A DNA stretch of 19,186 bases from Pseudomonadota bacterium (GTDB taxonomy: Bacteria > Pseudomonadota > Gammaproteobacteria > PS1 > Pseudothioglobaceae). The notes beneath the pieces were generated by a model. The model was not told where the DNA came from. It saw only the letters and a list, made by a program, of their open reading frames with translations, and searched no databases. Numbering within the stretch: the stretch's first letter is position 1; each line of letters begins with the position of its first letter. A program made the position numbers and the translations under genes. The stretch is from positions 1 to 19,186 of the forward strand of contig JAHZKM010000011.1 of the NCBI GenBank assembly GCA_022600395.1, written 5' to 3'. Of this stretch, positions 8,391-19,186 are shown piece after piece.

Positions 8391-9107
8391 ATGAAACACG
8401 TCCGCTTGTACCAAAATGCCCCTTTGAAAATTAATGATAATAAGTTTCTTGATGACTATGCATCACATCATTTAACTAAGGTTTTGCGCTTTCCTCAAGG
8501 GCGCGATATTACTTTATTTAATGGCGATGGATTTAATTATCAAGCGAGTGTTCTGAGTGTAAAAAAAAAGTGTGAAGTGCGAATTACAAGTCGCACCGCT
8601 AATTTAAACGAATCAAGGTTAAATCTGACTTTAGCGCAAGGTATTGCTAAGGGTGAAAAAATGGATTTTTTAATACAAAAAGCAGTAGAGCTTGGGGTGA
8701 ATCAAATTATTCCTATTTTTACTCAACATTGTGTGGTGAGACTCGCAGCTGAAAAACTCCAAAAACGCATGCAACATTGGCGCAAAATTATTATTGGTGC
8801 TTGCGAACAATCAGGTAGATCAGTGGTTCCAGAGTTGCTAGAGCCATTAAGTTTGGAAGAGCTTATGGCTCGTAATTTTGATTCTGTGTTTGTACTGCAC
8901 CATCGAGCAGAAAGTTCTTTGTTAGAGTTTGATCAGCCTGACCAAGCAACCATTATTATAGGTCCTGAGGGTGGGCTGAGCGATAAAGAGATTGCTTATA
9001 CTGTCCAAAATGGTGCGCAACCATTATTACTAGGCTCTAGAGTGCTGAGAACAGAAACAGCCTCTCTAGCCGCTATTGCGAATATGCAAATGCTATGGGG
9101 TAGTTAA
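8391..9107 (+). CDS. rsmE: 16S rRNA (uracil(1498)-N(3))-methyltransferase
   Basis: RsmE methylates N3 of U1498 in 16S rRNA of the 30S subunit using S-adenosylmethionine. It has 238 residues (E. coli 243), with an N-terminal PUA-like RNA-binding domain (~1-70) and a C-terminal SPOUT domain. SPOUT motifs are KAVELGV (97-103), ACEQSGR (137-143), IIIGPEGGLS (188-197) and the knot-forming LGSRVLRTETA (214-224). The ATG is preceded by only 35 bp shared with pepP, without a clear Shine-Dalgarno, so its promoter probably lies partly inside pepP. The 3' end overlaps the convergent DsrS-like gene by 15 bp. Confidence 0.96.
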   Translation: MKHVRLYQNAPLKINDNKFLDDYASHHLTKVLRFPQGRDITLFNGDGFNYQASVLSVKKKCEVRITSRTANLNESRLNLTLAQGIAKGEKMDFLIQKAVELGVNQIIPIFTQHCVVRLAAEKLQKRMQHWRKIIIGACEQSGRSVVPELLEPLSLEELMARNFDSVFVLHHRAESSLLEFDQPDQATIIIGPEGGLSDKEIAYTVQNGAQPLLLGSRVLRTETASLAAIANMQMLWGS

Positions 9108-10133
9108 AACGGCTAATGCTTTTTGAATTGGCTCGAGCACAGGCGCTAATTTTTTGCGAATTGCCGATCCGGTTAGATTATGAGCCGAAATTGTACTTAC
9201 TACCAAACGTTCATTAACACCTGCTAATAATAATCTAGCATTGAGCTGCTCCTGTTCCGCGCTTGAGTTGAGATTTAGACTTTTAATTTGTATATTAATC
9301 TTATCAAGAGAGCTCTGCGGAGTTATTTTTTCATGAGATATATATTGGCCAAGCACTTCTAAAGCACGGTAAAGTACATATTCTTGATTAATCTTTTTTA
9401 AAATATGGGCAAGTGTGGATAGAAAGATTTGCACCTGATCATTGTTAATAATTTGCAGGTCAGGATGTTCATAATTAGGCGATTGAATTTTAAACTCATT
9501 AGGTAGATGGCCTTGCATTCTTTCAACAAAACCCACCAAAAAGGCAGTTTTTCTTTGACCCTGTTTCCATAATTTATCTTTAGATTTTTGGTCGATTAAA
9601 TCGCCTTGTAAGACTAAACTAGTTGTATCTATTAGCTGTTCTGTTTCGTTTATAAAAGGCAAAAATTCTAATAAGTATTGGGCAACATCTCGACCTGTTT
9701 GAGTTTGAATGACAAACTCTTTGGTTAGCAAAAAACGACCAATTTCGGCTTGATTGTCGGTATTAGTAGCACACCACCAAGTGAGTTTTAGAAGTTGATC
9801 GTCAAGATTGGTTGAGTTAGCAACCGCTACAACCGCCTCAACCTCACCTAGTTTGAGCAAAGATGCTAGATTTGAAGACTCAACTTGCCCCATTCTTGAC
9901 CAGCGCTTTAGGTAAGAAGGATAGCCGCCCATTGCACCCAAAACTTGGGTAACCAATAGTTTTTTAACATCTTTAATATAAGCTGCACTGTCTCCGCTCG
10001 GCTTTAGCTCGATTGTTTGTTCTTTAAATTGTGCATTAAGCCCTACAACGACTAGCTTATAGGTATCAATGCGAATAGCAATCGAGGTGGCAATTAAAAC
10101 ATTTAGTTTTAGTATGTCTTCAGGCTCAAGCAT
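9093..10133 (-). CDS. dsrS: Probable DsrS-like protein associated with sulfur oxidation
   Basis: This 346-residue soluble protein has no signal peptide, no clear membrane segment and no recognised catalytic motif. Its N-terminal pattern (a LEPEDILKLNVLIA start, then GGYPSYLKRWSRMGQ at 69-83, LLKLGEVEAVVAVA at 92-105 and a Trp-Trp pair at 119-120) resembles what I remember of DsrS, a protein of unknown mechanism encoded with the dsr sulfur-globule oxidation genes of purple and SUP05-type sulfur oxidisers. This is recall of a family, not a search result. The ATG start overlaps the stop of the upstream small membrane gene by 8 bp, so translation is probably coupled in the order proC - membrane protein - this gene. 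No dsrAB, dsrC or other dsr gene is in the window. If the match fails it should be called hypothetical. Confidence 0.55.
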   Translation of the reverse strand: MLEPEDILKLNVLIATSIAIRIDTYKLVVVGLNAQFKEQTIELKPSGDSAAYIKDVKKLLVTQVLGAMGGYPSYLKRWSRMGQVESSNLASLLKLGEVEAVVAVANSTNLDDQLLKLTWWCATNTDNQAEIGRFLLTKEFVIQTQTGRDVAQYLLEFLPFINETEQLIDTTSLVLQGDLIDQKSKDKLWKQGQRKTAFLVGFVERMQGHLPNEFKIQSPNYEHPDLQIINNDQVQIFLSTLAHILKKINQEYVLYRALEVLGQYISHEKITPQSSLDKINIQIKSLNLNSSAEQEQLNARLLLAGVNERLVVSTISAHNLTGSAIRKKLAPVLEPIQKALAVLTTP

Positions 10134-10527
10134 TTAACAGTCTATTTAGTTGTGATAAGGAGTGAGAAGCAAGTGAATCTTTAAAGATAATCAACGAATT
10201 TTTGCCAAGATTGATTATCACCAGGAATTGAGATTGATAGGCGCAGTAAACACAAGGGTATTGGCAAGAATTGCCAGACTTATCGATTGTTGTAAACGCT
10301 TGATCGTCTAAAGTGATCGAACAAATTGCGCTCGACTTTGTTAATAAGATATGTGTATTTAACCAGTAAAAATGCGCTATAAGTAGGATGCTAAACATCA
10401 AGCTAGCATAGTGGTTAAAATTGTAAACCCAAACGATAGTGAGTGCAAATAAATGCACAAGCATTGAGATGCGTTGGTAAATTTTTGACGCCTGAAGCTT
10501 AAAAGTGGTTCGTTCAGTCGCTATCAC
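10126..10527 (-). CDS. Small inner-membrane protein, YgfX/CptA-like
   Basis: This 133-residue protein has two likely membrane helices (about 17-35 and 40-60), an N-terminal basic segment and a C-terminal mostly beta soluble domain ending in IIFKDSLASHSLSQLNRLL. The same plan (basic strand, helix pair, beta region, then DS followed by a leucine-rich helix) is seen in E. coli YgfX/CptA, an SdhE-linked membrane protein once described as a toxin. Sequence identity looks low, so the assignment is tentative, and no SdhE-like partner gene is adjacent. The start is GTG at 10527, overlapping the proC stop by 14 bp; the stop overlaps the DsrS-like gene by 8 bp. Four cysteines (69, 87, 91, 94 approximately) include a CVYC pair, which may be chance. 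Confidence 0.6.
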   Translation of the reverse strand: MIATERTTFKLQASKIYQRISMLVHLFALTIVWVYNFNHYASLMFSILLIAHFYWLNTHILLTKSSAICSITLDDQAFTTIDKSGNSCQYPCVYCAYQSQFLVIINLGKNSLIIFKDSLASHSLSQLNRLLNA

Positions 10528-16910: not shown

Positions 16911-18086
16911 TTATTCGGCGTGTTGCGCCCGGCCAAGACGCTCTATAGCGCGTAATTCATCGTTAATATAATACATTTTTAGACTGTTTCGCTCCCAAGG
17001 CGGTATTCCAGCCTCTTGCAGTACTTTTTTAAGGGGTTGGGAATGCTTTTTGCCAGCTAATTTAATGCGCTGGCCTTCTGTGCGGTAGCGGATAGAAAAA
17101 TTTGGCAAATTTTCCAATTCTGCATGAATAGGGCATTTTTGCTGATTTTTCTCTGAGTGTGTATCAATAAAATATAGCTGTTGTTGATAGCGCCTAATTT
17201 CAAATTCATTCCAACTAACTAATGGCATGGCGTCTGCTTTAGCAAAGATGAGTTCGAAAACTTGATCCATGATTTTGTCGCTCGGCGCTAAAAAATTTAA
17301 TTGATTGAGTTGATAGCGCAATACATTTTTAATTCTATGAAGCTCGAGCGTTATTAGCGGATTGATTTGTAATCGATTGTTAGAATCAATTAGCCGGTAG
17401 TTTTCAATATCAAGCTCGGCCAATTCATGCATGAGTTTGAGTGACTCGGATTGGTGTTTAGCACTACGAGCAAGTGATTTGGTTAGATTTTGGTAGGTTT
17501 TTGACAATAAGGGAATAACCTCTAAACGTAATAAGTTGCGTCTAAAGTTAGTATCTTTGTTGCTATCGTCTTCAATCCAGCTAAGTTTGTGCTTAGTGGC
17601 GTAGTCAATGACTTGCTGCTTATTAATCTCCAGCATCGGGCGATAGTGAATCCCCATACCTAAAGGTTTTTGTCGTGGCATGGAGGCTAATCCAGCCACG
17701 CCTGCGCCACGAAATAATTGCAAGAGTAAGGTCTCTGCTTGATCATCTTGATGGTGGGCAGTGCACAAAACCTCATCTTGATTTAAATCACACGATAGTG
17801 AAAAATAGCGTTTTTTACGTGCATTTTCTTCGATATTAGATGATTTTTCTAAATAAAAATCAATATTTTTATAAGGAATATTAAGTTGTTTGCATAATTT
17901 TTGACAAAAAATCTGCCAATTATCGCAATGCTCAGATAAGTGATGATTGCAATGCACTACTCTTAGGCGTTTAGGAAAGTGGGCGTGTAAATAGTGGAGT
18001 AAAACGACAGAATCCATGCCACCACTCAGGCCGAGGACAATATTTTTGCCCTCGAGATAGGTGTCTTTAGTCTTTAAACTGTCCAA
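16911..18086 (-). CDS. tilS: tRNA(Ile)-lysidine synthetase
   Basis: TilS attaches lysine to C34 of tRNA-Ile2(CAT), switching its reading from AUG to AUA; this is essential in most bacteria. It has 391 residues (E. coli 432). The PP-loop ATP-binding motif SGGMDS is at 21-26, followed by [31 protein letters not shown] and GAGVAGL, then [15 protein letters not shown] and the C-terminal [14 protein letters not shown] region. The start is a TTG at 18086, overlapping the accA-like stop by 20 bp; no ATG lies between it and the PP-loop. The non-standard start and overlap suggest translational coupling to the upstream frame. Its tRNA substrate is encoded at 1532-1608. accA near tilS is also the E. coli arrangement. 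Confidence 0.95.
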
Positions 18087-19185
18087 AGCTTAGTAGTTTT
18101 TCTTGTCTTGCTAAGAGCAAATCTTGCATAGGGATTTTTTTAATCGTGTTCAGCTCTTGCACTAAAGCGTCCTTTAATAAAGACTGTGCTTCAGATGGAT
18201 TGCGATGATTGCCACCTAGTGGTTCATTAATAATAACGTCAATCAAACCCTCTTTTTTAAGGTGTGTTGATGTTAGTTTTAGAGATTCAGCAGCGACATT
18301 TGCTTGGCTCGCATCTTTATACAAAATAGAAGCACAGCCCTCTGGAGAGATAACTGAATAGATAGAATATTCAAACATCATCATTGTATCTGCTACGCCA
18401 ATTGCTAAAGCGCCACCAGAGCCACCTTCACCAATCACTACAGAGATAATCGGTGTAGCTAAGGTTGACATCTCGAACAAGTTTTTAGCAATCGCTTCAG
18501 ATTGACCGCGTTCTTCAGCGCCAATACCAGGGTAGGCTCCAGGTGTATCAATAAAAGTAATGACCGGCATGTTAAATTTCTCAGCCATCTTCATTAAGCG
18601 AAGCGCTTTGCGATAACCTTCTGGGCGAGGCATGCCAAAGTTGTATTTGAGTTTTTCTTGCCAAATATCATCACCCAATCTTAAAGAGGCAAGCACACCT
18701 TGCAGCATTTCAGCTTCATTGGTATTGCCAGCATTTTGATAACAATCGATCAATAAGCTATAGGCTTCAAGATTTTTTGGATCGTTCTCTAAAACGAATC
18801 TACAGTTTTTTTCAGCATCTTTGAATCTTTGATTATCAATAAACCTAGCGGCTTGATTTAGCAGTTCCTTAGGGGTAAGTACTTCTTTAGCGGCAAGTAC
18901 TCTAACAGTTTTTTGTCTTGCTTTTGGTTTTATCATGCCAGTGACATTGCTAATAGGATTCACTTTAGGAAAGAGAGTGGTTTGAGTTTGTTGTCCTGTT
19001 CTTAATTGCTTGAGAAACGAATCTAGAGAGTAAATGCTCTGTATTTTTCGGCAATATCCGATCAGTTCATTAACCTCATGTTGTTCAGAGGCTTTCCCTA
19101 AAGTGAAGATATTACCAACATTGATTAACACGTCTCTTGCACGGGTAATGGCGACATTTAATCTTCTAAAGTCACGTAAAAATCC
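18067..19185 (-). CDS. accA: Chimeric frame: SF1 helicase C-terminus + TPR-like segment + C-terminal part of acetyl-CoA carboxylase carboxyltransferase alpha (AccA); 5' partial
   Basis: One uninterrupted frame runs off the window edge; the GTG at 19131 is not a credible start. Reading 5' to 3': residues at 19185-~18960 ([19 protein letters not shown], then LINVGN) match motif VI and the C-terminal end of UPF1/DNA2-like superfamily 1 helicases. A basic linker follows (~18960-18875). Next is a TPR-like helix pair (~18870-18682: [18 protein letters not shown], then NPLE-type spacing and [21 protein letters not shown]). From ~18657 on it is clear Acc[54 protein letters not shown] and [15 protein letters not shown]. 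coli AccA has NFGMP at residue 131, so about 127 N-terminal residues are missing and replaced. AccA normally pairs with AccD to make malonyl-CoA; this version should not be assumed functional. Confidence 0.85.
18640..18690 (-). other. Junction between TPR-like segment and AccA-like segment
   Basis: Homology to AccA begins at or just before the [10 protein letters not shown] stretch (codon E at 18657-18655). The residues just upstream ([11 protein letters not shown]) do not resemble AccA. The breakpoint is therefore placed at about 18658-18680. No insertion sequence, direct repeat or stop codon is visible at the join, and the frame is kept. Confidence 0.7.
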
Positions 19186-19186
19186 A

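Follow-up and report, generated by a model that had tools for sequence, protein, structure and literature searches.

An apparent helicase-TPR-AccA fusion in a Thioglobus-like draft genome is very probably a chimeric contig end

The open reading frame at the contig end

Bacterial fatty-acid synthesis generally needs the subunit encoded by accA, and the locus described here raises the question of whether, in one bacterium, this subunit has been joined in a single polypeptide to the end of a helicase and a TPR-like segment. The window, that is, the whole stretch of 19,186 nucleotides that was analyzed, is the entire contig C20 (1-19186) of a Thioglobus-like draft genome that comprises 1,175,869 bases in 125 contigs and is 94.17% complete. 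That C20 is no longer than 19,186 bases is deduced from where the window stops and from the frame being open there. On the minus strand, a single frame of 372 amino acids runs from 19185 to 18067 and is open at the contig end. The frame is confirmed to be real in the supplied letters, and a first-pass annotation that had read in it helicase motif VI, a TPR-like segment and AccA to its normal end is borne out by Pfam and NCBIfam.

Among the Pfam matches, AAA_12 (PF13087) covers frame residues 1-25 (profile 169-193 of 195), scoring 26.4 bits with the whole frame and 28.0 bits with the tail alone against a cut-off of 27, TPR_19 covers residues 116-159 (E 4.5e-7), and AccA (PF03255) covers residues 176-368 (profile 118-310 of 310, E 4.3e-94). 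In NCBIfam, the end of the IGHMBP2 helicase model TIGR00376 (586-629 of 639) matches frame residues 1-47 with 32 bits, far below the whole-protein cut-off of 348.9 bits, and AccA is matched by residues 176-371. The frame stays under the NCBIfam AccA cut-offs (319.1 of 357 bits and 305.8 of 319.3 bits) and is not a full-length AccA, as its N-terminal part is absent and only profile positions 118-310 of 310 are represented. When solved structures were searched with the frame, matches were returned for the AccA part only, with AccA chains aligned from residue 171-176 on.

The frame divides at 18660|18661. On the low side lies the native 3' part of accA (18067..18660, minus strand), which encodes residues 120-316 and the stop codon (PF03255 profile 118-310, E 2.5e-94 for this part). 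Its native neighbor, at 16911..18086 on the same strand, is presumably tilS, a name read from the sequence rather than from a family search; as called here, it shares 20 bases with the 3' end of accA, in agreement with the earlier view that the AccA tail overlaps tilS as a native accA might. On the high side lies the tail (18661..19186, minus strand), probably the end of an IGHMBP2/Dna2-like superfamily-1 helicase that includes motif VI, with a single TPR-like segment after it, as indicated by AAA_12, TPR_19 and the end of TIGR00376. The tail gene is open at the contig end, and of the helicase motifs only the last, motif VI, is present.

Two other frames of the window were also noted. A 346-residue frame at 9093-10133 has no Pfam match at E 0.001, and a 133-residue frame at 10126-10527 has a weak CptA-type (PF07254) match under the cut-off (22.1 of 27.3 bits).

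The missing half of accA

A search of the organism's own genome for AccA returned two complementary matches, profile positions 118-310 on C20 and 1-153 on a second contig, C83, and found no second complete accA. With C20:18500-19186 as the query in a DNA search of the same genome, followed by exact comparison, the 110 bases at 18551..18660 were found to be the first 110 bases of C83. The two contigs part ways immediately after 18660|18661, which is also the point where AccA similarity in the window ends. Past the overlap, C83 encodes the N-terminal 119 AccA residues that are absent from C20, and reading from C83 into C20 yields an AccA of normal, full length (316 residues). Since C83 crosses this point and extends 110 bases into the 3' part of accA, the native form of the gene is present in the assembly, and C83 holds the native continuation, in exact overlap with C20 up to the join. 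The accA of this organism is ordinary and complete, and is split over two overlapping contigs. The join itself, at 18660..18661, 526 bases from the contig end, has the features of a misjoin, with native accA on the low side and unrelated sequence on the high side; the accA genes of eight congeners (below) follow C83.

These results refine the first-pass annotation, which had recognized an AccA part, its truncation and the nearness of the join to the contig end, with figures that need adjustment. AccA starts in the frame not at NFGMP but at a glutamine (Q, 18660) six residues earlier; the number of absent residues is 119, or 125 when the count runs up to NFGMP, rather than about 127; and the join lies at 18660|18661 rather than at 18657, about 530 bp from the end. 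The search for a full accA that it had proposed led to the missing half on C83, where the overlap ends at the join.

The overlaps between contig ends also bear on how the assembly was made. The last 141 bases of C83 (L005 4301-4441) are the reverse complement of the last 141 bases of C123, and from these end sequences C123, C83 and, via the accA overlap, C20 are probably consecutive in the genome. According to the paper describing COBRA, where repeats fragment an assembly, contigs from metaSPAdes and MEGAHIT mostly overlap at their ends by the largest k, a habit of de Bruijn assemblers; the MEGAHIT k list used in that paper goes up to 141 (PMC10914622). The 141-base overlap of C83 and C123 suggests a MEGAHIT-like assembly with k=141 here. 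The overlap of C83 and C20 is 110 bases, not 141, and hence is no plain k-mer fork, and the two are not plain neighbors in a k=141 graph; it could have come from a pruned native branch or from extension via chimeric reads. The first 300 bases of C20 have no match elsewhere in the genome.

accA in congeneric genomes

The search for AccA in the genus covered 12 genomes including the organism's own. Eight of the 11 congeners gave one full-length AccA match each, and the remaining three, without an accA match in this search, are taken as gaps or search misses. In all eight, AccA has 316 residues to the stop, and the AccA read from C83 into C20 aligns with them without a gap at the join (the row for L023 is one residue short in this alignment). 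The AccA part on C20 has 85-94% protein identity to the same part in the eight congeners. At the DNA level, identity to seven relatives (L023 being left out for its short row) is 0.784-0.829 for the part of accA found only on C83 and 0.761-0.821 for the part found only on C20, a similarity that is as expected of one gene.

Gene order is conserved in the same way. tilS adjoins accA in 8/8 congener loci, with a tilS/accA overlap in these relatives as well; on the other side of accA, the LysE-type transporter gene of C83 (lysE1) is found in seven of the eight, and lysE2 and an EamA-type gene come next in six. L023 has no lysE match in a stretch reaching 8 kb past accA, and two further genes of C83 were not found in the eight congener neighborhoods. 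The reading from C83 into C20 places accA where the genus has it, between tilS and the lysE-type genes.

The spacing of ybeY and tilS varies among these loci. It is about 300 bases or less in the window and in L016, L017, L019 and L021, and 3-4 kb separate the two genes in three congeners (L018 4644-7835, L020 4069-8204 and L022 1459-4651).

The fusion and its tail in other genomes

The whole frame served as the query in a scan of contigs of other genomes (genome_contigs), with three patterns taken from the tail or the join and three from AccA, and the best 80 of 577 relatives were taken as accA loci. The tail occurs in none of these 80, and a normal AccA N-terminus is present in 78. In the other two, L056 and L109, the AccA match begins 38 and 64 residues in, close to a contig end that leaves only about 260 and 190 bases ahead of the C-terminal part of AccA. 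L054, whose alignment begins before the join, at residue 154, was considered as a fusion and rejected, having a normal AccA N-terminus and no tail match. The loci with the closest AccA (15 at 75-90% identity) are Candidatus Thioglobus, Candidatus Ruthturnera, SUP05-cluster, PS1-clade and other gammaproteobacterial records, which places the present genome near this group. No independent genome with the same architecture was found among the 80 accA loci (best 80 of 577) or in 82 family genomes. A narrow literature search, which proves little, likewise found no AccA-helicase-TPR fusion.

The 526-base tail, searched separately as had been recommended for both halves, has no match in the 82 other genomes of the family. 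Among the congeners, the tail was found in 0/11 genomes and is absent from all eight accA neighborhoods. In a class sample of 368 other genomes, four had weak partial matches (E 1.4e-5 to 7.6e-4), of which two fall on the helicase end and two on the TPR part. The two helicases, in L025 and L026, are IGHMBP2-like bacterial proteins that seemingly end in a CCCH-type zinc finger, as judged by eye from the translations; they were rejected as close relatives of the tail, from which their ends diverge. Peptide-pattern scans of genome_contigs and viral_contigs and tblastn of plasmids and phages found no tail relative at the limits used, a gene-order search over the 83 genomes already covered for the family added none, and no full-length relative with the same helicase-TPR tail was found in the genomes and databases searched.

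Within the organism's own genome, the only PF13087 match is the tail. This family is matched at the cut-off in one of 12 genus genomes, by this tail only, and below it in five others. PF13086 gave two below-cut-off matches in the own genome, on C96 and C95, and both were rejected as the missing helicase body: the frame on C96 is DNA helicase II (UvrD) and scores over one NCBIfam cut-off, and the C95 frame, in the part examined, is UvrD/RecB-like. Searches of the bin with PF13087 and PF13086 did not recover the remainder of the tail helicase.

In PADLOC, the tail matches MkoA and MkoC (best E 3.8e-6), all within residues 1-48; these matches reflect the common helicase end and give no grounds for assuming a defence system. 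The TPR part accounts for a fourth, weak match (E 0.011). Base composition is uninformative as to source. The GC content of the tail is 37.1%, compared with 39.4% for the window and 37.8-43.4% for eight native genes or gene parts, and its GC3 is 29.1% vs 29.7-37.2% in the same eight; both values are just under the native range, and too close to it to show a foreign source. The tail would come either from another organism in the sample or from sequence of this genome that is missing from the bin.

How the join arose

The apparent helicase-AccA fusion is very probably a chimeric contig end. The exact 110-base overlap of C83 and the intact accA order in relatives both support the assembly chimera that the first-pass annotation had favored; it is observed that the two contigs overlap, that the joined gene is intact, that gene order is conserved and that the fusion does not occur in the sequences searched. 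We infer that the join was made during assembly or library preparation rather than in a cell. On this account, the organism's accA would be a normal 316-residue gene crossing from C83 into C20, and C20 would have been extended at 18660 into 526 foreign or misplaced helicase-TPR bases, either by the assembler or through a chimeric fragment in the library. The frame would be open across the join because both pieces are coding and by chance share strand and frame, and the joined frame would have no function of its own. Weighing against this account are the overlap of 110 rather than 141 bases, a tail composition close to that of native genes, searches that did not yield the origin of the tail, the three congeners with no accA match and the missing lysE neighbor in L023.

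A genuine fusion protein that ties AccA to a helicase-TPR module would also leave the frame open through the join. By our own estimate, an open frame is expected in about 1/6 of random joins of coding pieces (strand 1/2, frame 1/3). Against such a protein, its AccA would lack the first 119 residues, which C83 of the same genome encodes in frame with the rest, and among the accA loci (best 80 of 577) the tail is nowhere found and a normal N-terminus is the rule; the tail has no match in the 82 family genomes either. This reading is extremely improbable. It is also very unlikely, if not to that degree, that a real deletion, inversion or insertion in part of the population cut accA in some cells and that the draft has both forms. 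Both continuations past 18660 do occur in the assembly, with 110 identical bases common to them, and minority variants resemble read chimeras when coverage data are lacking. Such a rearrangement has against it that accA is generally needed and that no second complete copy was found in the genome. The absence of the tail from all 11 congeners and of the helicase body from the bin also argues against it. A Thioglobus population in which some cells carry a helicase-TPR gene ahead of a truncated accA, and others an intact accA, is very doubtful; if true, it would amount to an unusual structural variant affecting lipid synthesis, in a gene on which bacteria generally depend.

To return to the chimeric contig end, the predicted helicase-AccA fusion should not be adopted as a protein architecture, and the case is a caution that contig-end proteins in draft genomes can mimic new domain fusions.

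Comparison with known systems

The AccA part of the frame (residues 176-372) corresponds to the last 197 residues of an ordinary AccA alpha subunit (PF03255; TIGR00513), from which it differs in that the N-terminal 119 residues are replaced on C20 and located on C83. To the IGHMBP2/Dna2-like SF1 helicases (TIGR00376; PF13087) the frame is linked by residues 1-47, which match the last part of the model, motif VI included, at a score far below the whole-protein cut-off; unlike them, the tail has the helicase end only, followed by a TPR segment. AccA fused to other domains in a single chain is known, for example, from the AccADCB chain in 9kkm, but there the partners are, by name, subunits of the same enzyme, whereas the frame on C20 joins a truncated AccA to an unrelated partner. 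The likeness to chimeric short-read contigs lies in a join near the contig end and in another contig that overlaps exactly up to the join and restores the gene order; the one difference noted is an overlap of 110 bases here vs 141 at another contig end of the same assembly.
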